Assembly: GCF_004348525.1 (NCBI RefSeq) | Contig: NZ_SMKG01000001.1 | Coordinates: 62,001 to 126,000 of the forward strand | DNA: 64,000 bases | Direction of reading: 5' to 3' | Origin: Micromonospora sp. 15K316 | GTDB lineage: Bacteria; Actinomycetota; Actinomycetes; Mycobacteriales; Micromonosporaceae | Shown here: in pieces, positions 9,446 through 42,556 of the stretch | Numbering within the stretch: the first letter of the stretch is position 1 | Layout of the letters: each line of letters starts with the position of its first letter | The notes under the pieces: generated by a model | Told to the model about the DNA's origin: nothing | The model's database searches: none | Seen by the model: the letters and a program-made list of their open reading frames with translations, nothing else | Program-made: the position numbers and the translations under genes

Positions 9446-10225
9446 TCAGGACGAGATCGCCTTCGCCCACGGCGCGAGGAGTCGTTCGAGGCCGGCCATC
9501 AGGTAGAAGAGGACGGTGCCCATGACGGCGAGCAGGGTCAGCGCGGCGAAGGCGAGGGGGGTGTCGGCGGACTGGCCGGAGCTGGCGATCACCGAGCCGA
9601 GCCCGGCCTCCGGGTTGATCACCTCGCCGATGATCGCGCCGATGATCGCCAGTGAGCTGGCCACCTTCAGCCCGACGAAGAGTTGCGGCAGGGCCCACGG
9701 AAGGCGAACCTTCAGGAAGGTCTGCCACCAGCTGGCGGAGAGGGAGCGAGCGAGTTCGCCGAGGTCGCTGGGGGTCGAGGTCAGGCCGGCCATGGTCGAG
9801 ACCAGGATCGGGAAGAAGCAGAGCAGGACGACCATCACGATCTTGGTTTCGTACCCGAAGCCGATCCAGACCAGCAGCAGGGGCGCGAGCGCCACCTTCG
9901 GCACCGCGTTGATCCCGGCGATGAACGGGAGGGCCATCCGCTCGACCGTCCGCGAGGCGGCGAGCAGGACGGCGAGAAGCAGTCCACCGGCCGCGGCGAT
10001 CCCGAACCCGATGAGCGTTTCCAGGAGGGTCACCCAGGCCTGCTCGGCGAGGTAGCCGGGGAGCCGGACGAACGCGTCGACCACGTCCGGGGGCGCGGGC
10101 AGGAAGAAGGGGTCGATGTCGAAGACCCACGTCACCAGCCACCAGAGGGCTATCGCCAGGACGGCGCCCAGGGTGGGCAGCCCGGCACTTCGCCATCGCC
10201 GCGGGGGCGGGACGTTGTCGGTCAC
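9446..10225 (-). CDS. ABC transporter permease, NitT/TauT type
   Basis: Permease of 259 residues with about six helices and an EAA loop (LGELARSLSASWWQTFLKVRLP) followed by the usual GLKVASSLAIIGAIIGE region of the SsuC/ThiX family. It lies 18 bp after the lipoprotein gene at 10244-11260 on the same strand, so the two form an importer unit. No ATPase gene accompanies them; the nearest family member is at 1352-2191 on the other strand. It may borrow that ATPase, or one elsewhere in the genome. Confidence 0.88.
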   Translation of the reverse strand: MTDNVPPPRRWRSAGLPTLGAVLAIALWWLVTWVFDIDPFFLPAPPDVVDAFVRLPGYLAEQAWVTLLETLIGFGIAAAGGLLLAVLLAASRTVERMALPFIAGINAVPKVALAPLLLVWIGFGYETKIVMVVLLCFFPILVSTMAGLTSTPSDLGELARSLSASWWQTFLKVRLPWALPQLFVGLKVASSLAIIGAIIGEVINPEAGLGSVIASSGQSADTPLAFAALTLLAVMGTVLFYLMAGLERLLAPWAKAISS

Positions 10226-10243
10226 GTCGACTCCGCCGGGTCG

Positions 10244-11260
10244 TCAGGGCTTCGACACGAAGCTGGAGTCGACAACGTGCGACGGGGTGAGACCCGGCCG
10301 GATCAGACCGGAATCCTGGAGGACGCCGATGGTACGGCTCACCCGTGACTCGTCGAGGAATCCGATCGGGGCGCCGTCGGCGGGGCGGACGTGCGGAGTC
10401 ATCGCCTCGATCTCGCTCCTGCCCGCCGCCACGGTGTAGGTCGGCTTCACCTTGTTGAGGATCGTCGCGGCCTCCTCCGGGTGCTCGATGCTGTACGCGA
10501 GCCCCTTGAGCAGCGCGGTGGTGAACCGCCGCACCAGGTCGGGATCCTTCTCGATGAGCGACGGGGTGGTGATGACGGCGTTGCCGAAGAGGTCCTTCAG
10601 GTAGTCGCTGTAGGGCAGGACGACGACCTCCTTCCGGGAGGCCGTCTCGAGAGCGCCTCGACTGAGCAGGAAGGTGCCCAGCGCGTCGACCTTCCGGCTC
10701 GCCATGAGCCCGTTGAGCGCGGTGGCCTGCACGCCCTCGATCTTCACCGTCTTCGGGTCGAGGCCGGCCAGTTGGGCGTACGCCGGAAAGAGCAGCTCGG
10801 TCACGGAGCCGGCGCCGGTCGCCATCGTCTTGCCCTGCAGGTCCTTCGGGGTGCTGATGCCGGTGTCCTTGGTGGTCATCACCGAGATCAGCGTCTGCTG
10901 GTGCACGGCGGCGACCGCCCGCCAGTCGGTGAACTCACCCCTGCCGGCCTGGATGACGGCGCCGGTGAAGTCGAGCGCCGCGAACTGGACCTGACCGGCC
11001 TTGAGGGCGGTCAGGTTCTGCTGATTGCCGGCGCCCTCCTTGATGTCGACCTCGATGCCGGCCTCGGCGAAGTAGCCCTTCTCCTTCGCCACCCACGCGA
11101 AGGCGTCCCGGCCCACGGCGCCGAAGGCGGTGATGTAGGCGACCTGGTCGGCGTCCCTGCCGGTCGGGTCGCCGCTGCCGGCGTCGGAGTCGCCGCAGCC
11201 GGTCACGACCAGCACCGTGGCCAACAGGGCCGCCGCCAGCGCGCGGGTGCGCTTGGTCAT
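10244..11260 (-). CDS. ABC transporter substrate-binding lipoprotein (NMT1/SsuA-like)
   Basis: Extracytoplasmic binding protein of 338 residues that captures the solute for the permease at 9446. It starts at ATG 11260 behind a GGAGG site; a longer in-frame version lacks a sensible leader. The signal peptide MTKRTRALAAALLATVLVVTG-C ends in a lipobox (VTGC), so it is a lipid-anchored protein. The mature part (YITAFGAVGRDAFAWVAKEKGYFAEAGIEV...) has the NMT1/THI5/SsuA fold signature in which the partner is described as a 'source-like' acid or sulfonate binder. A promoter can be proposed on the minus strand at 11360-11389. It is divergent from the DUF6282-GalB-aldolase operon, which suggests a shared substrate (inference). 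Confidence 0.88.
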   Translation of the reverse strand: MTKRTRALAAALLATVLVVTGCGDSDAGSGDPTGRDADQVAYITAFGAVGRDAFAWVAKEKGYFAEAGIEVDIKEGAGNQQNLTALKAGQVQFAALDFTGAVIQAGRGEFTDWRAVAAVHQQTLISVMTTKDTGISTPKDLQGKTMATGAGSVTELLFPAYAQLAGLDPKTVKIEGVQATALNGLMASRKVDALGTFLLSRGALETASRKEVVVLPYSDYLKDLFGNAVITTPSLIEKDPDLVRRFTTALLKGLAYSIEHPEEAATILNKVKPTYTVAAGRSEIEAMTPHVRPADGAPIGFLDESRVSRTIGVLQDSGLIRPGLTPSHVVDSSFVSKP

Positions 11261-11594
11261 GTGAAGCCTCCAGCTTCGACGTGTCGATCCGTCGCCGGCA
11301 CCTCGGCGTCGGCGGAATCCGGTGGCAGCCTCTTCGTGGCCGGCTCGCGTTGATTGAGCATCGTAGATTATCCGGGCCTCGGGTGTCACCGCGAGAAGCA
11401 GCACGGGGGCATGAAATCCCTTACCGTGCAACGGATTCCGCCGACAGGTCATCGTTGACATCGGATATCCGGGCGACGACCCTGTCGTATGTGGCGCCAC
11501 CCGGGCCGAGCGGATCGGTTCCCGAGCGGCCGGCCGGACCGGCTCGGTCCGCCCTCCTGCGCCGGCGCCGGTGGCGAGCCCTCGAAGGAGCCGG
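11261..11594. promoter_or_regulatory. Divergent promoter region between importer and catabolic trio
   Basis: This 334-bp gap separates two divergent operons and contains no gene. On the minus strand GTGACA (11384-11389) and TACGAT (11360-11365) are 18 bp apart and could be the -35/-10 of the binding-protein gene. On the plus strand TTGACA occurs at 11455-11460 without a convincing -10. ATCCGGGC occurs twice, near 11370 and 11467, and the 10-bp palindrome CGGATATCCG is at 11462-11471; these may be regulator sites. All assignments are by eye. Confidence 0.45.
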
Positions 11595-26654: not shown

Positions 26655-27662
26655 ATGCGAATCACGGGCAACACCCTCACCCGCCGCGGCTTCGGCGCCG
26701 TCCTGGCCGCCGGGCTGCTCGCGACCGGGCTGACCGCGTGCGCCAACAGCGACACCGGCGACGCCGGTGGCGCGGCCGGCGACGACAAGATCGTTCTCGG
26801 GTTCTCGCAGGTCGGCGCGGAGAGCGGCTGGCGTACCGCGAACACGACCTCGGTCAAGGAGGCCGCGGCCGAGGCCGGGATCGAGCTGAAGTTCGACGAC
26901 GCCCAGCAGAAGCAGGAGAACCAGATCCGGGCCATCCGCAACTTCATCCAGCAGAAGGTCGACGTGATCGCCTTCTCGCCGGTGGTGGAGTCGGGCTGGG
27001 ACACCGTGCTCAAGGAGGCCAAGGACGCGCAGATCCCGGTCATCCTGACCGACCGGGCCGTCGACTCGGCCGACAAGACGCTCTACAAGACCTTCCTCGG
27101 CTCGGACTTCGTGAAGGAGGGCCGGCTCTCCGCCGAGTGGCTGCTCGAGGAGACCAAGTCCGCGACCGGTCCGGTGAACATCGTGGAGCTGCAGGGCACC
27201 ACGGGCTCGGCGCCGGCCAACGACCGGAAGAAGGGCTTCGGGGAGGCGATCGCCGCCAACCCGAACCTGAAGATCATCGCTTCGCAGAGCGGCGATTTCA
27301 CCCGGGCCGGCGGCAAGGCCGTGATGGAGCAGTTCCTCAAGGCCAACCCGAAGATCGACGTGCTCTTCGCGCACAACGACGACATGGGCCTGGGCGCGCT
27401 CGAGGCGATCACGGCCGCCGGCAAGGTGCCCGGCAAGGACATCAAGATCATCACGATCGACGCGGTCAAGGACGGCATGCAGGCCCTGGCCGACGGCAAG
27501 TTCAACTTCATCGCGGAGTGCAGCCCGCTGCTCGGCCCCCAGCTGATGGACCTGGCCAAGAAGGTGCACGCCGGCGAGGAGGTCCCCGCGCGCATCGAGA
27601 CCGAGGAGACCACCTTCACCCAGCAGACGGCCAAGGAGGCCCTGCCCAACCGTAAGTACTGA
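26655..27662 (+). CDS. Sugar ABC transporter binding lipoprotein (YtfQ-like)
   Basis: Periplasmic-binding protein of 335 residues. The signal MRITGNTLTRRGFGAVLAAG leads to a lipobox (LTAC), so the mature protein is lipid-anchored; a twin-arginine pair is also present. The mature part (IVLGFSQVGAESGWRTANT, QNQIRAIRNFIQQKVDVIAF, FAHNDDMGLGALEAI) matches the galactofuranose/arabinose-type YtfQ group. Together with the ATPase and two permeases it forms a four-gene pentose/furanose importer. A hairpin at 27725-27755 separates it from the ATPase gene and may raise its relative expression. Confidence 0.9.
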   Translation: MRITGNTLTRRGFGAVLAAGLLATGLTACANSDTGDAGGAAGDDKIVLGFSQVGAESGWRTANTTSVKEAAAEAGIELKFDDAQQKQENQIRAIRNFIQQKVDVIAFSPVVESGWDTVLKEAKDAQIPVILTDRAVDSADKTLYKTFLGSDFVKEGRLSAEWLLEETKSATGPVNIVELQGTTGSAPANDRKKGFGEAIAANPNLKIIASQSGDFTRAGGKAVMEQFLKANPKIDVLFAHNDDMGLGALEAITAAGKVPGKDIKIITIDAVKDGMQALADGKFNFIAECSPLLGPQLMDLAKKVHAGEEVPARIETEETTFTQQTAKEALPNRKY

Positions 27663-27724
27663 CGGGCCGGAGCCCTCGGGCAGTGTCGTGCCTCGCGGCG
27701 AGCGGTCGCCCGGCGCGAGGGAGC

Positions 27725-27755
27725 GGGCCGGCGGTGTCCACAGCACCGCCGGCCC
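27725..27755 (+). terminator. Intra-operon hairpin (attenuator or mRNA stabiliser)
   Basis: A perfect 12-bp stem (GGGCCGGCGGTG at 27725-27736, complement at 27744-27755) with a 7-nt loop lies between the binding-protein and ATPase genes. Such hairpins commonly let the binding protein be made in excess. Confidence 0.6.
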
Positions 27756-27851
27756 GGCCACTCCGTCCTCTCCCCCGCACCCCCGCTGCGGGAGCGCCGC
27801 GCGGCCTCCGACGGCCGCGCGCCTGACGACAATCACGAAAGGTCTGGTGGG

Positions 27852-29396
27852 ATGTCGGATACGAATCCGGTCCTGACGATGACCGCGATCAGCAAGTTCT
27901 TCCCCGGGGTGCGGGCCCTCGACGGCGTCGACCTGCGCCTCTTCCCCGGCGAGGTGCACGCCCTGATGGGCGAGAACGGCGCCGGCAAGTCCACCCTGAT
28001 CAAGGTGCTGACCGGCGTGTACGGCCACGACAGCGGCAGCATCACCCTCGGCGGCGAGACGGTCTCCTTCTCCGGCCCGATGCAGGCCACCGAGGCCGGG
28101 GTGAGCACCGTCTACCAGGAGGTGAACCTCTGCCCGAACCTCTCGGTGGCGGAGAACATCTTCATCGGACGCCAGCCGCGGCGGCTCGGCGCGGTGCGCT
28201 GGCGCGACATGCGCCGCCGCGCGTCGGCGGTGCTCGCCCGCCTCAACCCGGACCTCGACGTCGGCGAGCTGCTCGGGAACCAGTCGCTCGCCGTGCAGCA
28301 GATGGTGGCGATCGCCCGGGCCGTCGACGTGCGGGCCCGCGTGCTGATCCTCGACGAGCCCACCTCCAGCCTGGACACCGACGAGGTGAAGCAGCTGATG
28401 CGCATCATGCGCCAGCTGCGGGACGAGGGCATCGCCATCGTCTTCGTCACGCACTTCCTCGACCAGGTGTACGAGATCGCCGACCGGATCACGGTGCTGC
28501 GCAACGGGCGGCTCGTCGGCGAGTACCCCACCGCGGAGCTGCCCCAGCTCGCGCTCGTGGAGAAGATGATCGGCAAGGATCTCGACGCGCTGGAGCGCCT
28601 CGACGAGCAGGCCGGGCGGGACCTGGCCGCCGTCGAGACGGGCACCCCCGTGGTCGAGGCGACCGGCCTCGGCAGGTCCGGGTCGGTCGAGCCGTTCAGC
28701 CTGACCATCCACCGCGGTGAGGTGGTCGGCATGGCCGGGCTGCTCGGCTCGGGACGTACCGAGGCCGCCCGCCTCTTCTTCGGCGCCGACCGGGCCGACC
28801 ACGGCCGGCTGGCGGTGGACGGCCGCCCCGTCACCATCCGCGGACCGGTCGCGGCCATCGAGCACGACATCGCGTTCTGCTCGGAGAACCGACGCACCGA
28901 GGGCCTGGTGGGCGAGCTGTCGGTGCGGGAGAACATCATCCTGGCGTTGCAGGCCGCCCGCGGCTGGCTGCGGCCGGTGCCGCGGCGGCGGCAGGACGAG
29001 CTGGTCCGGCGCTACATCGACGCGCTCAGCATCCGCCCGGCCGATCCGGAGATGCCGGTGCGCAACCTCTCCGGGGGCAACCAGCAGAAGGTCGTGCTCG
29101 CCCGGTGGCTGATCACGGAGCCGCGGCTGCTGATCCTCGACGAGCCGACGCGGGGCATCGACGTCGGCGCGAAGGCGGAGATCCAACGCCTGGTGGTGCA
29201 GCTCTCCGACGGCGGCATGGCGGTGCTGTTCATCTCCGCCGAGCTGGAGGAGGTGCTGCGGCTCAGCCACAAGGTCGCCGTGATGCGGGACCGGCAGCTG
29301 GTCACCGAGCTCGCCAACGACGACGACCTCGACGCCGACCGCGTCATGCGTGTCATCGCCGGCGGAGCGGAGCAGAAGGACGGGACGAGGCAATGA
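27852..29396 (+). CDS. Sugar ABC transporter ATP-binding protein (two ATPase domains, YtfR/AraG-like)
   Basis: Tandem-ATPase subunit of 514 residues. The first domain has Walker A GENGAGKST near residues 41-49 and LILDEPTSSLD; the second lacks a classical Walker A (GLLGSGRTE, as is normal for this family) and has NLSGGNQQKVVLARWL plus LILDEPTRGIDVGAK. It energises import with the two permeases that follow. The ATG at 27852 is preceded by GAAAGGTCTGGTGGG. It could equally serve arabinose, arabinofuranose or galactofuranose; the arabinose genes around it favour the first two. Confidence 0.93.
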   Translation: MSDTNPVLTMTAISKFFPGVRALDGVDLRLFPGEVHALMGENGAGKSTLIKVLTGVYGHDSGSITLGGETVSFSGPMQATEAGVSTVYQEVNLCPNLSVAENIFIGRQPRRLGAVRWRDMRRRASAVLARLNPDLDVGELLGNQSLAVQQMVAIARAVDVRARVLILDEPTSSLDTDEVKQLMRIMRQLRDEGIAIVFVTHFLDQVYEIADRITVLRNGRLVGEYPTAELPQLALVEKMIGKDLDALERLDEQAGRDLAAVETGTPVVEATGLGRSGSVEPFSLTIHRGEVVGMAGLLGSGRTEAARLFFGADRADHGRLAVDGRPVTIRGPVAAIEHDIAFCSENRRTEGLVGELSVRENIILALQAARGWLRPVPRRRQDELVRRYIDALSIRPADPEMPVRNLSGGNQQKVVLARWLITEPRLLILDEPTRGIDVGAKAEIQRLVVQLSDGGMAVLFISAELEEVLRLSHKVAVMRDRQLVTELANDDDLDADRVMRVIAGGAEQKDGTRQ

Positions 29397-29472
29397 GTGA
29401 ACGCAGCGCACGCGCCGTGGCACACGTCGCGTCGACACCACCCGACAGCGTCGCGGGGAAGGGGATACGCGC

Positions 29473-30546
29473 ATGAGCGGCTGGCGAACACGCCTCCCGG
29501 CCGTCACCGGTCACCGGCTCTTCTGGCCCGTGGTGGTTCTCGTGCTGCTGGTGGCGGCGAACGCGATCTACCGGCCCAGCTTCCTGACCGTCGAGATCAA
29601 GAACGGTCACCTCTACGGCAGCCTCGTCGACATCGTGCGGCTCAGCGCTCCGCTCATCCTGGTCGCCCTGGGCATGACGCTCGTGATCGCCACCGGCGGG
29701 ATCGACCTCTCCGTCGGCTCCGTCGTCGCGGTCAGCGGCGCGGTGGCCTGCCTGCACATCAGCCGGCAGCCGGACCAGAACAGCCTCGGCGGCGTGCTGG
29801 TCGCGCTGGCGATGGCGTTCGGGGTGTCGCTGCTGCTCGGCCTCTGGAACGGCACACTCGTCGCGGTGATCGGCATTCAACCGATCATCGCCACCCTGAT
29901 CCTGATGGTCGCGGGGCGGGGCCTGGCCCAGTTGATCACCTCGGGCCAGATCATCACCATCAACAGTGACCCCTACCGGATGATCGGGGTCGGGCACGTG
30001 CTGACCCTGCCGTTCGCGATCGTCCTCGCCCTGGCGGTGACCCTGCTCGTGGCCGTGCTCACCCGCCGCACCGCCCTCGGGATGATCGTCGAGGCGGTCG
30101 GTGGCAACGCGGAGGCCAGCCGGCTGGCGGGGATCCGGGCCCGGCGGATCACCCTCCTCGCCTATGTGGTGAGTGCCGCGTGCGCCGCCGTCGCGGGCTT
30201 CATGATGACCGCGAACGTCTCCAGCGCAGACGGCAACGCGGCCGGCCTCTGGGTCGAGCTCGACGCGATCCTCGCCGTGGTCATCGGCGGGACGTCACTG
30301 GCCGGCGGCCGGTTCTACCTCGGCGGCACGATCGTCGGCGCGCTGCTCATCCAGACCCTGACCACGTCCGTCTACGCCATGAACATCGACCCGCAGACCG
30401 CCCTGCTGTTCAAGGCGATGGTCGTGATCGCGGTGTGCCTCGTCCAGGCACCCGCCTTCCGCGCCAAGTTCCGGCGGCGGCGGGCCACCACAGGGGGGCC
30501 GACGGCCCCGACCGGCGAGCAGCGGAAGGAGCAGGTGGCGGCATGA
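29473..30546 (+). CDS. Sugar ABC transporter permease (YtfT-like)
   Basis: Membrane subunit of 357 residues with about ten helices. The family block [27 protein letters not shown] is near residues 64-90, and GGTSLAGGRFYLGGTIVGALLIQTL is near 280. It lies 76 bp after the ATPase gene; the gap contains no gene. The stop overlaps the next permease by 4 bp. A basic C-terminal tail (KFRRRRATTGG) is cytoplasmic. Confidence 0.92.
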   Translation: MSGWRTRLPAVTGHRLFWPVVVLVLLVAANAIYRPSFLTVEIKNGHLYGSLVDIVRLSAPLILVALGMTLVIATGGIDLSVGSVVAVSGAVACLHISRQPDQNSLGGVLVALAMAFGVSLLLGLWNGTLVAVIGIQPIIATLILMVAGRGLAQLITSGQIITINSDPYRMIGVGHVLTLPFAIVLALAVTLLVAVLTRRTALGMIVEAVGGNAEASRLAGIRARRITLLAYVVSAACAAVAGFMMTANVSSADGNAAGLWVELDAILAVVIGGTSLAGGRFYLGGTIVGALLIQTLTTSVYAMNIDPQTALLFKAMVVIAVCLVQAPAFRAKFRRRRATTGGPTAPTGEQRKEQVAA

Positions 30547-31553
30547 GCACCAGCCAACTGGTCGAGCGACCGGACCGGACGACACGGTGGCGGCTGCCAC
30601 GCCGGCAGCTACCGGTGCTGGTCAGCCTCGCCCTGCTCCTGGTCATGTACGGCATCGGCGTCTCGCAGTACCAGGCGTTCTCGAACATCCAGGTCGTCTT
30701 CAACGTCTTCATCGACAACGGGTTCCTGCTCGTCGTCGCGGTCGGCATGACCTTCGTGATCCTGACCGGCGGCATCGACCTGTCGGTCGGCTCGGTGGTG
30801 GCGATGACCGCGATGGTGTCGGCCGCGCTGCTGCGCGACGGACTTCCGCCCGCGCTCGTCCTGCTGATCGCGCTGCTTATCGGCCCGACGCTCGGGTTCG
30901 TGATGGGCTGCGTCATCCACTTCTTCGAGATCCAGCCCTTCATCGTCACCCTGGCCGGGATGTTCTTCGCCCGCGGCCTCTGCACCTGGATCAGCTCGTC
31001 GTCGATCCCCATCACCGACGGCTTCTGGACCAGCGCGGCCCAGGAACGGATCCGCATCGGCGAGAACTTCCTGACCGTCGGCGTTCTCATCACGGTCGCG
31101 GTGGTCGCGGTGGCCGCGTACACGCTGGCGTACACCCGGCTGGGGCGCAACGTGTACGCGATCGGCGGCAACCCGCAGTCCGCGCTGCTGATGGGCCTGC
31201 CGGTGGGCCGTACCCGGATCGCCGTCTACACCATCAGCGGGCTCTGCTCGGCCATCGGCGGCATCCTGCTGTCCTTCTACACCCTCTCCGGGGCCCCGCT
31301 GATCGCCGTCGGCATGGAGCTGGACGCGATCGCCGCCGTGGTCATCGGCGGCACCCTGCTCACCGGCGGCGCCGGCTACGTCCTGGGCACCGTGCTCGGT
31401 GTGCTGGTGCTCGGCGTGATCCAGACCCTGATCACCTTCGACGGCACCCTGAACTCCTGGTGGACCAAGATCGTGATCGGTGGGTTGCTGTTCGCGTTCA
31501 TCGTGCTCCAACGGCTCCTCGGCTTCCGCAAGAAGTCGCTCTCCACTCGCTGA
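30543..31553 (+). CDS. Sugar ABC transporter permease (YjfF-like)
   Basis: Second permease of 336 residues, related to the previous one ([55 protein letters not shown]), as in E. coli YtfT/YjfF pairs that form a heterodimeric pore. ATG 30543 overlaps the upstream stop. It is followed 16 bp later by araA, so uptake and isomerisation share one transcript. Confidence 0.92.
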
Positions 31554-31569
31554 TCGGAAGGCAAACCGC

Positions 31570-33075
31570 ATGACTCGCCCATCACCGGCCCCCGAGGTCT
31601 GGTTCCTCACCGGCAGCCAGGGGCTCTACGGCCCGGAGACGCTGCAGCAGGTGGCCGCCCAGTCGCAGCAGATCGCCGCGCAGCTCGACGCCGATCCGGC
31701 CATCCCGGCCCGGGTGGTCTGGAAGCCCGTGCTGACCTCCAGCGCGGAGATCCTGGCGGTCTGCCGCGACGCGGCCGTCCAGGGCGCCGTCGGGGTGATC
31801 GCCTGGATGCACACCTTCTCGCCGGCGAAGATGTGGATCTCCGGTCTGGACGCCCTGCGCACGCCCCTGCTGCACCTGCACACCCAGGCGAACGTCGCGC
31901 TGCCCTGGTCCGAGATCGACATGGACTTCATGAACCTGAACCAGGCCGCGCACGGCGACCGCGAGTTCGGGTTCGTGCAGACCCGGCTCGGGGTCGCCCG
32001 CAAGACGGTCGCCGGGCACGTCAGCAACCCGCAGGTCGTCTCGCGGATCGCGGCGTGGACCCGGGCCGCCGTCGGGTACACGGCGATGCGGTCGCTGCGG
32101 CTGGCCCGCTTCGGCGACAACATGCGCGACGTGGCGGTCACCGAGGGCGACAAGGTCGAGGCGGAGCTGCGCTTCGGTGTCTCGGTCAACACGTACGGGG
32201 TGAACGACCTGGTCGCCGCCGTCGACGCGGTCGCCGACGCCCGGATCGAGGAGCTGGTGAAGGAGTACGAGGACGGTTACCGTCTCGACGCCGTGCTGCG
32301 GCCTGGCGGCGACCGGCACGACTCGCTCCGCTACGCGGCCCGCATCGAGGCCGGGCTGCGGCAGTTCCTCACCGACGGCGGCTTCGGGGCCTTCACCACG
32401 AACTTCGAGGATCTCGGCGGGCTCCGGCAGCTGCCCGGCATCGCCGTGCAGCGGCTGATGGCCGACGGCTACGGGTTCGGCGGCGAGGGCGACTGGAAGA
32501 CCTCGGTGCTCGTGCACACGCTCAAGGCCATGTCGGTGGGCACCAGCGGCGGCACCTCCTTCATGGAGGACTACACCTACGACCTCACCCCCGGGCAGGA
32601 GGTCGTGCTCGGCGCCCACATGCTCGAGGTCTGCCCGAGCATCGCCGCCGGGACGCCGAACGTGGAGATCCACCCGCTGGGCATCGGCGGACGCGAGGAC
32701 CCGGTACGGCTGGTCTTCGACGCCCAGCCGGGTCCGGGTGTGGTGCTGGGGCTGGCCGACATGGGCGACCGGTTCCGCCTGGTGGCCAACGAGATCGACG
32801 TCGTGGCCCCGACGCAGCCGCTGCCGAAGCTGCCGGTCGCCCGTGCGGTGTGGCGGCCCCGCCCGGATCTCGCCACCTCCGCGGAGGCGTGGCTCACCGC
32901 CGGTGCGCCGCACCACACGGTCCTCTCGCAGGCCGTCGGCACCGAGGAGCTGCACGACCTCGCCGAGATGACCGGCACCGAGCTCCTCGTCATCGACGCG
33001 GGGACGACCCCTCGGCAGCTGGCGAACGAGATCCGCTGGAACCAGGCCTACTACCGGCTGGCGAAGGGTTTCTGA
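31570..33075 (+). CDS. araA: L-arabinose isomerase
   Basis: Isomerase of 501 residues (E. coli AraA is 500) converting L-arabinose to L-ribulose with Mn2+. Characteristic sequence is [20 protein letters not shown] at the N-terminus, [16 protein letters not shown], the metal-site region around [20 protein letters not shown], and [19 protein letters not shown]. The ATG at 31570 has GGAAGG eight bases ahead. It closes the importer operon and is followed by a strong terminator. With araB and araD it completes the bacterial arabinose route to xylulose 5-phosphate. Confidence 0.96.
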
Positions 33076-35377: not shown

Positions 35378-35941
35378 TCACCCGGCTTGCGGGCGTTGCG
35401 TCGCCTCGAAGCGGGCGCGGTCGAGGAAGGCGAGCTGGGCGCGCTTCTCCGGCAGGTCGATCTCGGGGCCGAGGACGAACCCTTCCATCTCCAGCCGGTG
35501 CAGGGCCCGATGGTTGCGTACGTCGGGTTCGACGACGATCCGCCGGGCGGTCGGATCCGCGAACAGGAACCGGGCGAGGGCGGGCCCGATCGCGGTGGTG
35601 AGGCCTCGCAGGTAGCGGCGGGTGGGACTGAGCAGCAGGTGCATGCCGATGTCACCGGGCTGGACGTCGTACCGCTCGCCGACCGGGTCCGCGTCGGGCT
35701 GGTAGGTCTGGAACAGCCCGACCGGCTCGTCGTCGATCGTGATCAGGTACGCGTGATGGGTCGGCAGGCCGTCGATGAACTCGTAGATCTCGCGTACCTG
35801 GTCGACGCTGTGCGTGCCCATCCCCCAGAACGAGTTACGGGGCTGGCTGACCCAGGCGTGCAGCAGGTCCGCGTGCGCGTCCGGGTTCACGGTCACGAGC
35901 GACAGCTCGCCGAGGTCGGGGATCTTCTCCTGGTAGGTCAT
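35378..35941 (-). CDS. Siderophore-type GNAT acyltransferase (MbtK/IucB-like)
   Basis: A 187-residue GNAT protein of the acyltransferase MbtK/IucB type, which acylates a lysine- or amine-derived hydroxamate precursor in siderophore pathways. The characteristic block is NSFWGMGTHSVDQVREIYEFID, with GDIGMHLLLSPTRRYLRGLTTAI as the acyl-CoA region and RIVVEPDVRNHRALHRLEMEGFV as the fold end. It is divergent from the siderophore-interacting protein gene, and both share the iron box at 36069-36091. No lysine/ornithine N-hydroxylase is near, so its amine substrate is open. Confidence 0.83.
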   Translation of the reverse strand: MTYQEKIPDLGELSLVTVNPDAHADLLHAWVSQPRNSFWGMGTHSVDQVREIYEFIDGLPTHHAYLITIDDEPVGLFQTYQPDADPVGERYDVQPGDIGMHLLLSPTRRYLRGLTTAIGPALARFLFADPTARRIVVEPDVRNHRALHRLEMEGFVLGPEIDLPEKRAQLAFLDRARFEATQRPQAG

Positions 35942-36068
35942 GGTGCCCTGTCCTTGGGTGAGGTGAGGTGGATCGGCTGGCGGTCGACGCCGGCTCGGGT
36001 GGTCCGCGAGGCCGGGTCGTCGTCGCGCGGGTGCCGAGGTGTGGGCCGACGTTCCGTCCGGCGCGGTA

Positions 36069-36091
36069 TTAGGTTAGCCTGGCCTAACTAA
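36069..36091. promoter_or_regulatory. IdeR/DmdR-type iron box
   Basis: TTAGGTTAGCCTGGCCTAA (36069-36087) matches the 19-bp IdeR/DmdR consensus at 16 positions, with further TTAGG-like half-sites continuing to the right (CTAACTAAGG). It lies 24 bp before the GTG of the siderophore-interacting protein gene and upstream of the divergent acyltransferase gene, so both should be repressed by Fe2+. Confidence 0.82.
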
Positions 36092-36114
36092 GGCTGACCT
36101 TAACTGGAGGGCGC

Positions 36115-36825
36115 GTGAAACGTAACTGGGAAGCTGTGGTGCTCCGGGCCATGGGCGGCCGGGACTTTCGGCTGACCGTGCGCGCCACCGAGTCCGTCCA
36201 CGGGCACTACCAGCGACTGATCGTGGACGACGGTGGGCTGCTGCAGGCCTGCGGTGTGCACCCCACCATGTGGATCCGCCTCTGGTTCGACGACGGCGGC
36301 CGGGCGCATCAGCGTGCGTACACATTGGTCGACCCGGACCCCACGACCGGCCGGTTCGGTCTCGAGTTCGCGCTGCACGACGGCTGCGCCGCCCGGTGGG
36401 CGACCACCGCGAAGATCGGCGACACCATCGACGCGACCGTGCAGGGCAGCGCCTTCCAACTCCCGGACCCCGCGCCCGAACATCTCTACCTGGTCGGGGA
36501 CGCCGCCTCCCTGCCGGCGGTGAACAGCCTGCTCGACACGGCCGCCGACATCCCGGCGACGATCTGGCTGGAGTACGCCCACGAGGGCGAGCAGACGCTC
36601 ACGCCCCGGGCGCGCGCGCACCACGACGTCACCTGGGTGCCGCGCCGCGACGGTGGTCAGCACCTGGTGGACACCGTCTGCGCCGCCCTGCCCAAAAGCG
36701 ACACCGCCCACTACTGGGTGGCGTGCGAGGCGGCCAGCACCCGCGGCATCACCCGGCACATCCGGCGCACCCTCGGCGTCGACAAGCGGCAACTGACCTC
36801 GCTCGGCTACTGGAGAGCCGCGTGA
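36115..36825 (+). CDS. Siderophore-interacting protein (FAD-dependent ferric reductase family)
   Basis: A 236-residue SIP/ViuB-family protein, thought to reduce ferric siderophores in the cytoplasm with NAD(P)H. The FAD-binding site is QRAYTLVDPDP (R-x-Y-T type, near 65-75) and the nicotinamide domain has LVGDAASLPAVNSLLD near 127-142 (a variant of GDETALPA) and a C-terminal helix with GVDKRQLTSLGYWR. The GTG at 36115 has GGAGGG. Directly controlled by the iron box. A hairpin (36859-36897) separates it from the biosynthetic genes. Confidence 0.9.
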   Translation: MKRNWEAVVLRAMGGRDFRLTVRATESVHGHYQRLIVDDGGLLQACGVHPTMWIRLWFDDGGRAHQRAYTLVDPDPTTGRFGLEFALHDGCAARWATTAKIGDTIDATVQGSAFQLPDPAPEHLYLVGDAASLPAVNSLLDTAADIPATIWLEYAHEGEQTLTPRARAHHDVTWVPRRDGGQHLVDTVCAALPKSDTAHYWVACEAASTRGITRHIRRTLGVDKRQLTSLGYWRAA

Positions 36826-36858
36826 CGCACGGCTGCGACGCTCGCCGCACCCGTTGCG

Positions 36859-36897
36859 CCACCCGCCCTCACGATCCGTCCGGCCGCGGGCGGGTGG
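36859..36897 (+). terminator. Hairpin between SIP gene and siderophore synthesis genes
   Basis: CCACCCGCCC (36859-36868) and its complement (36888-36897) form a 10-bp stem with a 19-nt loop. It may terminate or attenuate readthrough into the synthesis operon. Confidence 0.5.
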
Positions 36898-36997
36898 TAG
36901 CCGCCCCGGCCGGTGACCCGGCGGTCGCCGCGTGAGCTGGTCCGGACGGGCACGCTAGGTGAACCCATCAGCGACTCGTTGCATCGACGGAGGCGGG

Positions 36998-38167
36998 ATG
37001 CCGCTGTACCTCACCGCGTTGAACCCCACCGACGCGGTCCTGGACGGATTCCTGCCCGCCGCGGCCCGGCTCGGGCTGCCGGTCACCGTGCTGACCGACC
37101 GCCCCGAGCAGTGGCCGGCCGGGGTGCCGGTGGCGCGTTGCGCGGTCCGCGACCCGGCGGCCGTGGTCGCCGCAGCCACCGGACCGCTCGCCCTGCTCTC
37201 CAACAGCGACCATCTCCAGGAGGCCACCGCGGCGGCCGCGCGCACACTCGGGCTGCCCGGCAAGGACCTACGGGCCGCCCGGATCTGCAAGGACAAGGTC
37301 GCCGCCCGCCAGGTGATCGCCGCACGGGGACTCGACGTGGTACGCGCCGTCGCCGTCGGGCCGGGCACCCTGCCCTCGACGCCGGAGGCGATGTTCCCCG
37401 CGGTGGTGAAGCCTCGCGACGGCGTGGCCAGCGAGGATGTGTACCTGGTGGCGGGACGCGACGAGCTGACCGCCCGGATCGCACAGATCCGCGGACGTCG
37501 GCCGGACGTCGCGCTGGTCGTCGAGGAGTACCTCGACGGCGAGCTGCGCACCTACGACACCCTCGGCGACGCGACCGGACGGACGATCCTCGGCGGGTGG
37601 CGTACCGGCCTCGGCCCGCCGCCGACCTTCACCGAGCTGAGCCTCGACTGGTCGCCGCCGCCGGCTCGGCACGACCGGCAGCTCCGGGCCCGGCTCGACG
37701 CGCTCGGTGTCGGCTTCGGCGCCTGCCACACCGAGTACGTCGTGCAGGACGGCCGGGTACGGCTGATCGAGGTGAACTACCGTCTGATCGGCGACCGGAT
37801 GGACCTGATCCTCGCCGAACTGCTCGGCGTGCCGCTGTTCGAACACGTCATCCGGCTGCACCTCGGTGAGCCCCTGAACGCCCTCGCCCTGCCCGACCCG
37901 GCCGGCGTCGGCAGGTACGCCCGCGTCGAGTACGTCTGCGCCGACCGGTCGGGACGGCTCGCCGCCGCCCCCGGGCGCTTCGACGCCGTCCACGACGGTG
38001 TCCGACTCGGCTGCCGGCCGCTGCGCGAGGTCGGCAGCATCGCCGAACGCACCGGCACCAACCGCGACTACCTCGCGGTGCTGCACGGCATCGGCCCCGA
38101 CCGGGACACCGTCCGGGCCGCGCTCATGGCCTTCCGAGACGACCTCCGGTGGACGATCGACGGATGA
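36998..38167 (+). CDS. ATP-grasp ligase of NIS siderophore locus (PvsA-like)
   Basis: ATP-grasp carboxylate-amine ligase of 389 residues. Visible elements are the nucleotide-binding Lys in PAVVKPRDGVASEDVYLV, the adenine-site VVEEYLDGELRTYDTLGD, and the metal site RLIEVNYRLIGDRMDLI. I start at ATG 36998 with ACGGAGG at 36987-36993; a GTG 13 codons upstream is weaker. In vibrioferrin loci an ATP-grasp enzyme (PvsA) accompanies two IucA/IucC synthetases and a decarboxylase, which is the arrangement here. It would add an amino acid to a carboxyl group. Its stop overlaps the next gene by 4 bp. Confidence 0.8.
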   Translation: MPLYLTALNPTDAVLDGFLPAAARLGLPVTVLTDRPEQWPAGVPVARCAVRDPAAVVAAATGPLALLSNSDHLQEATAAAARTLGLPGKDLRAARICKDKVAARQVIAARGLDVVRAVAVGPGTLPSTPEAMFPAVVKPRDGVASEDVYLVAGRDELTARIAQIRGRRPDVALVVEEYLDGELRTYDTLGDATGRTILGGWRTGLGPPPTFTELSLDWSPPPARHDRQLRARLDALGVGFGACHTEYVVQDGRVRLIEVNYRLIGDRMDLILAELLGVPLFEHVIRLHLGEPLNALALPDPAGVGRYARVEYVCADRSGRLAAAPGRFDAVHDGVRLGCRPLREVGSIAERTGTNRDYLAVLHGIGPDRDTVRAALMAFRDDLRWTIDG

Positions 38168-39792
38168 CCGACGACAGCGAGCGGGAGGTCTTCTCCCGGG
38201 TGCTCGACGCGCTGCTGCGCGAAGACCATCTCGGCCTGACCAGCAACGGCAGGCCGCGGGGCGCGCGGTGGTGGGAGGCTCCGCACCGCGACGGGCTGCT
38301 CCGGATCCCGGTCCGCGCGGACGGCTTCCAGCAGGTTCTCCGCAGCGCCGCCGCCGTGCTGCACGTCGAGCCCGCCATCGGTGACGGCTACCGCGTGGAC
38401 ACCGTGGACGGGCTGCTCACGTTGTTGGCGCCGCAGGACGACGCGGAGGCCGAGGCGGGCTGGGCGGTCTTCACCGGCGAGTGCCGGGCGGACCTGCGGG
38501 CACGCCGGCTCGCCGCCCGGGCCCGGCCCCGGGTGTTCGCCTCGGTCGCCGCCGAGCTGGCCGCCGCGCCCACGGGGATGCCGGCCGCGCTGCTCGACGA
38601 CGTGCTCGCCGCGTACGCGGGGCATCCGGTCTACCCCACCGACCGCTGCCGGCACGGGCTCAGCGACGACGAGCTGCGCCGCTACGCCCCCGAACACGCG
38701 CCCCGCTTCGCGCTGTGCTGGAGCCTTACCCCGGCGGCGGCGCTGCGGCTCACCGGTGAGCTTCCCGCCTGGTGGCCGCGATCCCCGCACCCGGACACGA
38801 TCCTGGTGCCGGTGCATCCGCTCACCGCCGCCCGCGGTGACCTGCCGCTGGTCGACCCGCCGCCCGTGCACGTACGGCCCACCCTCTCCATGCGGACGGT
38901 GGCGCTCGCGGACGACCCGTACACGCACCTGAAGCTGCCGCTGCCGACGGCGACCCTCGGCGCGCGCAACCGCCGGACGCTGCACCCGGACACCCTCGCC
39001 GACGGCGCCGCGGTCGCTGGTCTGCTCGACCGGACCGCCGCCGCCGAACCGGCCTTCGCCGGCCGGATCCGGCACGCCGACGAGGGGACCTACGGGCAGG
39101 TCGGCGACGACGACCGGCGCAGCTTCCTGCTGCGCCGCTTTCCCCGCGACCTGGCCGACGTGCAGGTGGTCCCGGTCGCGGCGCTCGCCGCCCCGGACCC
39201 CGTCGCGGGCACCGTGCTCGAACGGGTCAGCCCGGGTGACCCCGCGGCGCTGCTCGCGTCCTATCTGGAGCTGCTGCTCGACTGGCACGTCTGCCTGTGG
39301 CTACGGTACGGGGTGGCCCTCGAGGCCCACCCGCAGAACATCCACCTGCTGCTCCACGGCGACGGGACGGTCGGTCTGCTCTACAAGGATAACGACGGAG
39401 CGCGGCTGGACCCGCGCCACCGGGGTCCCGGCCGGCTGTCGCTGCGCGACGAACGGATGTGGGCAGGTGACCCACAGGAACTGGCCGACGTGTTCATCAC
39501 CATCACGCTCCACCTGGCGGCGGCCGCTCCCCTGCTCGCGCTCGCCGCCCGAGGGGTACGGGTACCGACACCGGCGCAGGCGTTGACGTCCCGCCTGGCC
39601 GCGGCCCGGGACCGGTGGGGCGACGGGTCCACGGCTCGGATGTTCACCGAGCGGGTGTTGCGGGCCGCCCGGCTCCCGGTCAAGGCGATGGTCACCGCCG
39701 GCACCCTCCTGCCCAAGCAGCGCCTCGGCTGCACCGACGTCAACAAGTACTACCGGCGGACCGGCCCGAACTACCTGCGGGAGACGCGATGA
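38164..39792 (+). CDS. IucA/IucC family NIS synthetase 1
   Basis: NRPS-independent siderophore synthetase of 542 residues that adenylates a carboxylate (usually citrate) and couples it to an amine or alcohol. Recognisable blocks are GHPVYPTDRCRHGLS (form of the GHPxHP motif), VPVHPL, RPTLSMRTVAL with HLKLPL, EAHPQNIHLLL and YKDNDGARL, and the FhuF-like C-terminal LPKQRLGCTDVNKYYRR. ATG 38164 overlaps the upstream stop. It differs enough from the second synthetase that the two probably act at distinct steps. Confidence 0.92.
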   Translation: MTDDSEREVFSRVLDALLREDHLGLTSNGRPRGARWWEAPHRDGLLRIPVRADGFQQVLRSAAAVLHVEPAIGDGYRVDTVDGLLTLLAPQDDAEAEAGWAVFTGECRADLRARRLAARARPRVFASVAAELAAAPTGMPAALLDDVLAAYAGHPVYPTDRCRHGLSDDELRRYAPEHAPRFALCWSLTPAAALRLTGELPAWWPRSPHPDTILVPVHPLTAARGDLPLVDPPPVHVRPTLSMRTVALADDPYTHLKLPLPTATLGARNRRTLHPDTLADGAAVAGLLDRTAAAEPAFAGRIRHADEGTYGQVGDDDRRSFLLRRFPRDLADVQVVPVAALAAPDPVAGTVLERVSPGDPAALLASYLELLLDWHVCLWLRYGVALEAHPQNIHLLLHGDGTVGLLYKDNDGARLDPRHRGPGRLSLRDERMWAGDPQELADVFITITLHLAAAAPLLALAARGVRVPTPAQALTSRLAAARDRWGDGSTARMFTERVLRAARLPVKAMVTAGTLLPKQRLGCTDVNKYYRRTGPNYLRETR

Positions 39793-41387
39793 CCGGCACG
39801 GGGCTGCGCTCCCGGCGGCACCGGGACACCGACCGTCGGGCGGACCTCTCCGCCGCCCACGCCGTCTTCGGCTGCCTCCTGCGCGAGATCGCGCTGCCCG
39901 ACGGCGACGCGACCGCGACCGACGGCGAGGCACGTCTGCGGCTGCGCCACCTCGACGTGACGCTGCGCTGCGCCGTCACGCGCCGTTCGCCGCTCGGCGC
40001 CCACCGGTACGCGGGTCCGGTGCAGCGGCAGGTCGGTGACGAGCAGTGGGAGGACCTGGACACAGCGCGGTTGGCCGATCTCGTCGCGGCGGAACTCGCC
40101 GCGCGCACCGGCCAGGCCAACGAGGAGTTCCTCGATCAGGTACGGGCCAGTCGCGACGCGGTGGCACACCTGCTGGCCGAACGGCCGGTGCGGGACCCGG
40201 CCCCCACCGGTGACCCCGCCGTCGACAGCTATGTCGAGTCCGAACAGTCGCTGGTCTTCGGCCACCCGCACCATCCCGCCCCGAAGTGGCGCAGCGGTGA
40301 TCCGGACACCTGGCGCTGCTACGCACCGGAGCTGCGCACCGCCTTCCGGCTGCACTGGCTCGCGGTCCCGGACGAGCTGGTCGCCGACGCCGGGCCCTTC
40401 GACCCGCTCGTGGCGGCCCTCGACCCGCCCCGACCGCCGGCCGGGCACCGGGTCCTGCCCGTACACCCGTGGCAGCTGACGCTCGTGCCCCCGGCGCCCT
40501 ACCCGGTCCGCCGGCTCGGCGCGGCCGGCGTCCCGGTACGACCCACGGCGAGCGTGCGCACCCTCTACTCCCCCGCCGCCGACCTCTTCGTCAAGACCAG
40601 CCTGCACGTACGCATCACCAACTGCCTCCGCAAGAACGCGCGGTACGAACTCGGCGGCGCGGTCGCCCTGACCGCCCTGCTGTCGCGGATACCGCTGCCG
40701 GCCGGCGTCGCCCTGCTCACCGAACCCGCCTACCGCACTGTCGACACCCCGGGCGCGGACGAGGCATACGGGACGATCCTGCGCACCGGGCTGCGCCCGC
40801 ACCTGCGGCCCGGGGAGACCCCCGTGCTGGCGGCCGCGCTCGCCGCCGCGCCGCTCACCCCGCCCGACCCGGTGACCTGGTGGCGGGCGTACGTCGGGCT
40901 GCTCGTCCCGGCGGTGCTGCGCTGCTGGCTCGCGCACGGGGTGGTGCACGAGGCGCACCTGCAGAACGTGGTCGTGGTGCTCGACCGGGACCACCGCCCG
41001 GTGCGGATGCTGCTGCGGGACCTGGAGGGCGTGAAGCTGGACACCGACCGGTGGACGGTCTGGCCGGACGGGGTTCCGTCGCAGGCCGGCTACCGTCCGC
41101 AGGCCGCCCGCCGGCGCGTCGTCTACTGCCTCTTCGTCAACCATCTGGCGGGGATCTGCGGCGCGCTCGCCGACGGGTCGACGGGAATCGAGCCGCAGCT
41201 CTGGCGGGAGGTGCGGGCGGTCGTCGCGGCGGTCGCCGCCGACCTCGGCGATCCACCGGAGCTGGGCCGGTTGCTGAGCGGGGAGCCGTTGACCGCCAAG
41301 GCGAACCTGCTCGTCCGGTGGCGGCGCGAGGCCGATCGGGGCGCCCCGTTCGTGCCGGTGCCGAACCCGTTCGGCGGGCCACGATGA
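39789..41387 (+). CDS. IucA/IucC family NIS synthetase 2
   Basis: Second NIS synthetase, 532 residues, with the full motif set: GHPHHPAPKWRSG near 158-170, VHPWQ, the ATP-site LFVKTSLHVRITNCLRKN, EAHLQNVVVVL, RDLEGVKL and KANLLVRW. Two synthetases in one locus imply two carboxylate activations on one scaffold or two building blocks. Start ATG 39789 and its stop both overlap neighbours by 4 bp, so the four biosynthetic genes are one translationally coupled unit. Confidence 0.94.
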   Translation: MTGTGLRSRRHRDTDRRADLSAAHAVFGCLLREIALPDGDATATDGEARLRLRHLDVTLRCAVTRRSPLGAHRYAGPVQRQVGDEQWEDLDTARLADLVAAELAARTGQANEEFLDQVRASRDAVAHLLAERPVRDPAPTGDPAVDSYVESEQSLVFGHPHHPAPKWRSGDPDTWRCYAPELRTAFRLHWLAVPDELVADAGPFDPLVAALDPPRPPAGHRVLPVHPWQLTLVPPAPYPVRRLGAAGVPVRPTASVRTLYSPAADLFVKTSLHVRITNCLRKNARYELGGAVALTALLSRIPLPAGVALLTEPAYRTVDTPGADEAYGTILRTGLRPHLRPGETPVLAAALAAAPLTPPDPVTWWRAYVGLLVPAVLRCWLAHGVVHEAHLQNVVVVLDRDHRPVRMLLRDLEGVKLDTDRWTVWPDGVPSQAGYRPQAARRRVVYCLFVNHLAGICGALADGSTGIEPQLWREVRAVVAAVAADLGDPPELGRLLSGEPLTAKANLLVRWRREADRGAPFVPVPNPFGGPR

Positions 41388-42556
41388 CCCGGCCGGTCTA
41401 CGTCCACGACCTCGACGCGCTGGCGGCCCACCTCCGGTCGATCCGGGCGGCGTTGCCGCGCGAGGTCGAGCTGCTCTACGCGGTCAAGGCGAACCCGGAC
41501 CCGGGTGTGCTGCGCACCCTGGCCCCGCTCGTCGACGGATTCGAGACCGCCAGCCGCGGTGAGCTGCGGCGACTGGCCGAGGTGCTGCCCGACCGGAGGG
41601 CGGCCGCGTACGCCGGGCCCGGCAAGACCGACGACGACCTCGCCGCCGCCCTGGCGGCCGGGGTGCACCGGATCCACGTCGAGTCGCCGGCCGAGCTGCG
41701 ACGCCTCGCCGCGCTGGCCGTGGCCGCGCGGCGACCGGCACGGGTACTGCTCCGGGTCAACCTGCCCGTCACGGCGCCCGGCGCGAGCCTGGTGATGGGC
41801 GGCCGACCGAGCCCGTTCGGCATGGACCCGGACGACGCGATCGAGTGTGCCCGCCGGCCGCCCGCCGGCGTCGAGGTGCTGGGGGCGCACGCCCACCTCG
41901 CCAGTGGACTCGACGCGGAACTCGCCGGGGCGGTCGCCGCCGACGTGGTCCGCTGGTCGGTCACCGAGCTGGGCGCGACGGAGGTCGACGTCGGCGGGGG
42001 CATGGCGGTGGACTACCTCCGCCCGAGCGCGCGGTTCGACTGGGCCGGGTACGGGCGGACGCTTGCCGGTCTGCTCGACGCCCACCCGCACGTGCGGCTG
42101 CGTATCGAGCCGGGCCGGTCGCTGACCGCCTACTGCGGGGCGTACCTGACCGAGGTGATCGAGGTGAAACGGTCCCGGGGCGAATGGTTCGTGATCGTGG
42201 CGGGCGGGACGCACCACCTGCGTACCCCCGCGGCGAAGGGGCACCCGCAACCCTTCACCGTGCACCGGCGACGCGGTGCGGACGGCCCCCGCACCGACGG
42301 CGGGGCGGTCACCGTCGTCGGACAACTCTGCACCCCGAAGGACGTGCTCTCCCGGTCCAGCTCGGCGGGTGTGATCGGCGTCGGCGACGTGCTGGTCTTC
42401 GCCATGGCCGGCGCGTACGCCTGGAACATCAGCCACCGCGACTTCCTGCTCCACGACCCACCCGAGTTCCGCAGCGGCGATCCCCGGGAACTCGCCACGC
42501 GGTGGTCCGCCCGGCCGCTTCACCCGTACTCCCGGCGCCCGGGCCGCAGCCCCTGA
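41384..42556 (+). CDS. Type III PLP-dependent decarboxylase (PvsE/SbnH-like)
   Basis: Alanine-racemase-fold decarboxylase of 390 residues. The Schiff-base Lys is in YAVKANPDP near residue 35, EPGRSLTAYCG holds the phosphate/pyridine site, VVGQLCTPKDVL carries the catalytic Cys from the partner subunit, and GAYAWNISHRDFLLH is the form seen in siderophore decarboxylases. Vibrioferrin PvsE decarboxylates a seryl citrate ester and SbnH a diaminopropionyl conjugate; general diaminopimelate decarboxylation is less likely in this locus. Ends 2 bp before a convergent gene. Confidence 0.87.
   Translation: MTRPVYVHDLDALAAHLRSIRAALPREVELLYAVKANPDPGVLRTLAPLVDGFETASRGELRRLAEVLPDRRAAAYAGPGKTDDDLAAALAAGVHRIHVESPAELRRLAALAVAARRPARVLLRVNLPVTAPGASLVMGGRPSPFGMDPDDAIECARRPPAGVEVLGAHAHLASGLDAELAGAVAADVVRWSVTELGATEVDVGGGMAVDYLRPSARFDWAGYGRTLAGLLDAHPHVRLRIEPGRSLTAYCGAYLTEVIEVKRSRGEWFVIVAGGTHHLRTPAAKGHPQPFTVHRRRGADGPRTDGGAVTVVGQLCTPKDVLSRSSSAGVIGVGDVLVFAMAGAYAWNISHRDFLLHDPPEFRSGDPRELATRWSARPLHPYSRRPGRSP

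Follow-up and report, generated by a model that had tools for sequence, protein, structure and literature searches.

A pvsABDE-type siderophore core, probably behind what is left of a desferrioxamine locus, in Micromonospora sp. 15K316

Gene content of the locus

We analyse here a stretch of 64,000 nucleotides (nt) of Micromonospora sp. 15K316 (contig NZ_SMKG01000001.1, positions 62,001 to 126,000 of the forward strand), called the window below, which comes from a draft genome of 6.96 Mb in 455 contigs. The subject is a locus where four genes of the types pvsA, pvsB, pvsD and pvsE (A, B, D and E below) lie behind a gene for a GCN5-related N-acetyltransferase (GNAT), an iron box and a gene for a siderophore-interacting protein (SIP), as listed in Table 1. 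It is probable, in our judgement, that this arrangement is a pvsABDE-type core for a siderophore independent of nonribosomal peptide synthetases (NIS siderophore), situated behind the head of an eroded desferrioxamine (des) locus.

The genes named in the initial annotation, that is, an ATP-grasp ligase, two IucA/IucC synthetases, a pyridoxal phosphate (PLP) decarboxylase and the GNAT acyltransferase, are all present by Pfam matches, and the 4-bp overlaps that it reported are read from the sequence as three ATGA overlaps linking the four biosynthetic genes, at 38164-38167, 39789-39792 and 41384-41387. For the ATP-grasp gene, the ATG at 36998, with GGAGG just upstream, is preferred over the mechanically called GTG at 36959, and the gap from the end of SIP to the start of pvsA is then 172 nt. 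The named relatives of the locus are Micromonospora, with M. musae being the nearest (B protein 94% identical).

Table 1. Features of the siderophore locus, in coordinates of the window (MFS, major facilitator superfamily; aa, amino acids).
Feature	Coordinates	Strand	Basis
GNAT acyltransferase, DesH-type	35378..35941	-	PF13523, 174 bits; read as part of former desferrioxamine locus
Iron box, DmdR/IdeR-type, between GNAT and SIP, 46 nt before SIP	36069..36087	+	2 mismatches to consensus
SIP (siderophore-interacting FAD protein), DesF/DesJ-type ferrisiderophore reductase	36115..36825	+	PF04954, 89.8 bits
In-frame scar, eight codons plus stop, of deleted 525-aa DHA2 MFS gene	36932..36958	+	aligned with L035:7218-8795 of M. 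musae, coordinates counted on the sequence
PvsA-type ATP-grasp ligase, 389 aa	36998..38167	+	PF13535, 27.9 bits, just above cut-off
PvsB-type NIS synthetase (IucA/IucC), 542 aa	38164..39792	+	PF04183, 78.8 bits
PvsD/AcsD-type NIS synthetase (IucA/IucC), 532 aa	39789..41387	+	PF04183, 141.7 bits
PvsE-type PLP decarboxylase, 390 aa	41384..42556	+	PF02784, 102.6 bits

Identity of the four biosynthetic genes

The reference set consisted of annotated pvs-type operons from named plasmids of Vibrio fortis, Cupriavidus necator (pHG1), Pantoea soli, two Rhodococcus and Piscirickettsia. The window A, B, D and E match five such operons position by position, as colinear orthologues. The identities to Rhodococcus oxybenzonivorans are 54% for A, 45% for B, 48% for D and 51% for E, and those to Vibrio fortis are 34% for A (to the protein at the pvsA position), 31% for B, 27% for D and 44% for E. 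A protein of one synthetase class (B or D) matches the other class much less well than its own, with expectation (E) values of 2e-5 to 7e-15 against 7e-53 for the weakest in-class match.

Profiles were built from nine D proteins and from nine B proteins. The D profile gave 448 bits for AcsD, 237 for IucA, 127 for IucC and 80-86 for DesD, and the B profile gave 138 bits for structure 7cbb, which we take to be SbnC, 83 for AsbB, 80 for IucC, 39 for AcsD and 30-43 for DesD. Moreover, the AcsD positions S279, R281, K293, T301, R305, E442, H444, Q446 and N447, which have assigned roles in AcsD and were numbered by counting on the D-profile alignment, carry the same letters in the window D protein. 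Based on the positional matches and the profile scores of B and D, we conclude that the four genes, as judged from their sequences, are pvsABDE and not desferrioxamine enzymes. This is what the initial annotation had assigned, and both the colinear orthology and the DesD scores, which lie far below those of AcsD or 7cbb, agree with it. The synthetase phylogeny suggested there was covered in part, by the profile comparison with AcsD, 7cbb and DesD.

The acyltransferase, the reductase and the iron box

Sixteen loci were fetched for comparison, among them 13 from Micromonospora genomes without a pvs match, which were chosen, not at random, for bearing a gene for an RhtX/FptX-like MFS protein (c8). 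These 13 pvs-free loci carry GNAT in all cases, SIP in 12 and c8-desABCD in 10, with SIP lying ahead of c8 and desABCD, and in 9 of these 10 desD is followed by a DHA2 MFS gene (c9). Eight of the 13 have a DesG-like penicillin-amidase gene (confirmed by PF01804 for one, L183), and no match to DesG was found in the window. According to PMC12161575, desJ, desG and desH of S. coelicolor make up an iron-controlled locus; desJ is paralogous to desF, the ferrioxamine reductase gene, DesH is a DesC-like acyltransferase, and desferrioxamine B drops strongly when desG or desH is lost. Since the pvs-free loci carry GNAT and SIP, and in view of desJGH of S. coelicolor (PMC12161575), the two genes of the window are read as the head of a desferrioxamine locus, with a DesH-type GNAT and a DesF/DesJ-type SIP at an iron box. 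The names DesH and DesF/DesJ rest here on locus context and on those passages (PMC12161575) rather than on comparison with the S. coelicolor proteins.

The initial annotation had treated the acyltransferase as an enzyme added to the pvs set. This assignment is rejected, because all 13 sampled desferrioxamine-type loci without pvs contain GNAT. Nor is it taken as DesC itself, as it is 42% identical to DesC of L144, where DesC is a separate gene. Most likely, GNAT caps desferrioxamine and is not part of the pvs product.

It is noted that in some of the Micromonospora loci (L168, L170, L171, L173, L177, L182 and L183) the genes for the DesG-like protein, GNAT, SIP, the RhtX-like MFS, DesABCD and the DHA2 MFS form one locus, which joins the two loci of S. 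coelicolor, desABCD and desJGH. The same arrangement is seen in L176, which is cut before GNAT, and in L169, which is without desABCD.

The iron box, TTAGGTTAGCCTGGCCTAA, has 2 mismatches to the consensus used. When up to 3 mismatches are allowed, the window has this one match, and none was obtained in 100 shuffles; the iron box named in the initial annotation is found again.

The deleted MFS gene and the exporter

The window aligns to M. musae through the first two codons of c9 and resumes at the last codons of c9; by this alignment, the DHA2 MFS gene present in M. musae is deleted in the window. No homologue of PvsC was found in the window, and none in the source genome at E 1e-25. In 65 genomes, most having 29 candidates scored, this threshold gave a match in one, the source of the query itself, and none in the other 64. 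The lack of PvsC, which had been noticed before, is therefore borne out and is the usual state. Since no PvsC was found, we file the locus as a pvsABDE-type core working like vibrioferrin synthesis, rather than as a complete vibrioferrin operon.

Two candidates for the export role were weighed and set aside. The DHA2 MFS was not adopted as a replacement of PvsC, because it closes the desferrioxamine locus in 9 of the 10 sampled pvs-free loci having desABCD, and this role is also weakened by its variable presence (27 of 52 rows of the layout described below, with at least 12 changes). The RhtX-like c8 was rejected as an exporter, the nearest NCBIfam model being that of the RhtX/FptX siderophore transporter (150 bits, below the cut-off of 356); the c8 query, which matches in 70 of 160 Micromonospora genomes, gave no match in the source genome. 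The missing exporter is accounted for as far as the anatomy allows. Note also that a locus without exporter is not unusual, because the desferrioxamine locus of S. coelicolor encodes none (PMC12161575).

As for uptake, the aldolase, the importer permeases and the binding protein of Rhodococcus have no match in the window. The source genome has seven PF01497 binding proteins, so that uptake need not be local, and the earlier statement that any uptake genes are missing overlooks SIP.

Distribution and joined des-pvs loci

The pvsA-type gene is present in 64 of 160 Micromonospora genomes, the source genome included, where it is nearly always accompanied by the rest of pvsABDE. In a family sample of 200 genomes, 28 have the B gene (the source included), and the B profile matches in 2 of 395 other genomes of a phylum sample, a rough lower bound from a scan that scored three candidates per genome. 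The four genes also occur in Arthrobacter, Sinomonas, Streptomyces, Embleya and Nonomuraea.

We arranged 66 pvs loci as rows, namely that of the window, 64 from 63 further Micromonospora genomes and one from a different genus of the same family, with the genes in the relatives being called by a simple script based on GC content at third codon positions (GC3), in which starts may be wrong. Many carry c8 and/or c9 between SIP and pvsA: 18 rows have GNAT, SIP, c8 and intact c9, 8 are without c9, 2 have c9 in pieces and 3 are without c8, while in 10 SIP alone is present and 12 have none of the parts, including one (L159) that is cut by the contig and not assessable.

In six loci (L123, L144, L149, L155, L157 and L160) pvsABDE is immediately preceded by desABCD; L149 is without c9, c8 has no match in L160 and desD is split in L155, and the stretches fetched for these loci end short of GNAT. 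Neither c8 nor desABCD is at this locus in the window or M. musae, and the only desABCD found in the source genome is on contig C409, with desA at the contig end. At E 1e-60, DesD has a match in 58 of 65 genomes, one each except for split pieces in G303, with the match in G231 being partial. In a tree of 20 rows, the DesD of the source genome groups with two other stand-alone DesD rows (100/99), and the locus-type row L183 is sister to these three, so that the stand-alone des operon may conceivably be a relocated operon of the locus type.

A quick tree of concatenated A, B, D and E (72 rows, with support from the Shimodaira-Hasegawa-like approximate likelihood ratio test, SH-aLRT, only) pairs the window with M. 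musae (support 100). Because the six joined loci are spread over three separate parts of one 50-row clade, the tree favours a joined des-pvs ancestor of this clade, with repeated loss afterwards, and makes it less likely that desABCD was inserted several times. The minimum numbers of changes are 5 for des adjacency (63 rows), 7 for c8 and 12 for c9 (52 rows), counts in which gain and loss are not distinguishable.

Across the loci, an iron box was accepted at up to 4 mismatches within 250 nt before pvsA. Of the 65 loci whose upstream sequence is long enough, 37 have such a box, mostly at about 50 nt, whereas 1300 base shuffles gave 0. In the ten SIP-only loci, which belong to a second clade, neither SIP nor pvsA is preceded by a box of this consensus. 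In seven relatives without c9, pvsA starts about 2-55 nt behind c8, gaps that are approximate because the starts were estimated by homology (L120 gave GCT; L060, L150 and L152 gave TTG). The box before pvsA is missing in 10 of the 13 rows without intact MFS and in 4 of the 26 with intact MFS, an association (22/4 versus 3/10) with a Fisher p of 0.0003 when kinship is ignored and a median p of 0.06 over nine independent pairs on the tree. The two losses are thus only suggestively linked once kinship is respected.

Some further rows deserve mention. Pieces of the exporter gene are present in L058, L129 and L133, and in L134 and L158 the pvsD and/or pvsE match is in pieces, which may reflect broken frames or draft errors. 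One Micromonospora locus, L132 (G251), has a Rhodococcus-like order of ATP-binding cassette (ABC) importer genes, binding protein, pvsA, B, C, D and E. In the second clade (L067, L068, L128, L138, L148 and L153) pvsABDE lies mostly behind SIP and is followed by an ABC importer, with no des parts nearby. In L125 (G231) pvsABDE is near a gene that by eye resembles lysine/ornithine monooxygenases (9901-11262) and one resembling nonribosomal peptide synthetases (NRPS; 12536 on), perhaps another siderophore cluster. The genome G299 has two pvs loci, L151 and L157, one joined to desABCD and the other alone and without a pvsE match.

Outside the locus in the window, an OYE-family gene follows the decarboxylase gene on the opposite strand. 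Positions 26655-33075 hold, by eye, a sugar ABC transporter set and then an arabinose-isomerase-like gene, and the end part of this stretch also flanks the locus in M. musae (L035). Upstream of the window (L166, G000:C111:50001-62000), an NRPS-like frame runs off the stretch and is followed by genes that by eye resemble those of protocatechuate/beta-ketoadipate catabolism.

Proposed explanation and its alternatives

We propose that the locus in the window arose from a joined des-pvs locus by the loss of c8, the RhtX-like gene, and of desABCD, the DHA2 exporter gene having been reduced to the scar. The deletions would have fused pvsABDE to the iron-controlled des head, capturing its promoter and its reductase, as the anatomy suggests. 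Under iron starvation the box would be relieved and SIP-pvsABDE transcribed together. The AcsD-like D enzyme would then join citrate and L-serine, the decarboxylase E would yield the ethanolamine ester, and an amino acid and 2-ketoglutarate would be attached by the ATP-grasp ligase and the PvsB-type synthetase, so that the product would be vibrioferrin or a close analogue. The D step is so assigned because D resembles AcsD, which condenses citrate with L-serine. The ferric complex may enter by an ABC importer encoded elsewhere and be reduced by SIP.

A wider reading, which we put forward tentatively and with slightly less than even confidence, is that of a siderophore take-over. A vibrioferrin-type block would have landed behind the Micromonospora des locus and repeatedly captured the iron-regulated promoter and the ferrisiderophore reductase and importer genes. 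The loss of the DHA2 MFS, mostly with that of the pvsA box, would put pvsABDE behind the RhtX-like gene or SIP, and desferrioxamine would be made from a stand-alone des operon elsewhere.

Several points weigh against the proposal of a functional core behind an eroded des head. No box is present before pvsA in the window or M. musae, where only the one before SIP remains. GNAT is retained in 33 of 66 pvs rows, many without des, plus a fragment in L121, and 3 of the 13 pvs-free loci are also without desABCD, so that des loss needs no pvs. Among other exporters in the source genome only c9 paralogues, at most 43% identical, were found, and none can be named. The source is a draft assembly. As for the chemistry, a review gives the ester bond to PvsA and the amide bonds to PvsB and PvsD (PMC6836290).

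The alternative that survives best is that of a decaying locus, where the neighbours have been lost and pvsABDE makes little or nothing. It draws on the absence of both the DHA2 MFS gene and a box before pvsA, on the lack of a c8 match in the source genome, and on the pieces of exporter, pvsD and pvsE in the relatives named above, and we regard it as unlikely. All four window frames are open and retain the residues that are invariant across the aligned sets from Vibrio to Micromonospora. The pairwise ratios of nonsynonymous to synonymous substitution rates (dN/dS) between the window and M. musae are 0.34 for A, 0.27 for B, 0.28 for D, 0.21 for E, 0.25 for SIP and 0.19 for GNAT, with 0.07, 0.23 and 0.43 for flanking genes, a crude measure that would miss, to the detriment of our proposal, a relaxation on the window branch alone. 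Moreover, the S. coelicolor desferrioxamine locus likewise encodes no exporter (PMC12161575). These sequence features indicate that pvsABDE is likely functional, with a very recent decay being conceivable.

Less probable still is a self-contained cluster for a new acylated siderophore, as the initial annotation had suggested, in which GNAT would acylate a citrate-based, decarboxylated product. GNAT does share one iron box region with SIP beside pvsABDE, is 96% identical to that of M. musae with the dN/dS just given, and is kept in half of the pvs rows, nearly all without adjacent desABCD. By contrast, the same GNAT is in every sampled pvs-free locus, in eight of them with DesG, and DesG and DesH act on desferrioxamine B in S. 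coelicolor according to PMC12161575. Many pvs loci, in turn, are without GNAT in the stretch seen (the 10 SIP-only rows and the 12 with none of the parts, L159 among these being not assessable). An acylated product is hence not supported, GNAT belonging with the desferrioxamine-type loci. Finally, a pathway of staphyloferrin B or achromobactin type, to which the nearest solved structures of B (7cbb, presumably SbnC) and D (AcsD) would point, is very improbable, because those pathways have three NIS synthetases and no ATP-grasp ligase, whereas the window has two synthetases with a PvsA-type ligase and fits the pvs operons in gene-by-gene orthology and in order.

Significance

Vibrioferrin, a weak and photolabile iron chelator, is described from Vibrio and Marinobacter in the review (PMC6836290). 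Among titles and the beginnings of abstracts in the open PMC literature, no vibrioferrin-type cluster in Micromonospora was found. The presence of the pvsA-type gene in 64 of 160 genomes predicts a citrate-based siderophore beside the desferrioxamines in a drug-producing genus. With des-pvs loci ranging in steps from joined through partly eroded to gutted, the take-over of promoter and reductase between siderophore pathways becomes testable, and the series corrects the assignment of genes to pathways when such clusters are mined.

Comparison with known systems

With the pvsABCDE operons of the Vibrio fortis, Cupriavidus pHG1, Pantoea soli and Piscirickettsia plasmids the window shares orthologues of A, B, D and E in the same order, but PvsC, which lies between B and D there, is absent, and the window genes sit behind the SIP of a des-type locus. 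The closest named complete operons are those of the Rhodococcus plasmids pRWAY01 and pRB29, the identities to R. oxybenzonivorans given above being those to pRB29. Rhodococcus keeps PvsC, an HpcH/HpaI aldolase, the binding protein and the ABC importer genes, whereas PvsC, the aldolase, the importer permeases and the binding protein have no match in the window. Compared with desABCD and desJGH of S. coelicolor (PMC12161575), the window locus is without desABCD, which is on contig C409, and without DesG, and it shares SIP and the PF13523 GNAT at an iron box. The locus of M. musae, an orthologue of the one studied here, shares GNAT, the iron box, SIP and pvsABDE, at 89-96% identity, and differs in still having the 525-aa DHA2 MFS gene between SIP and pvsA.

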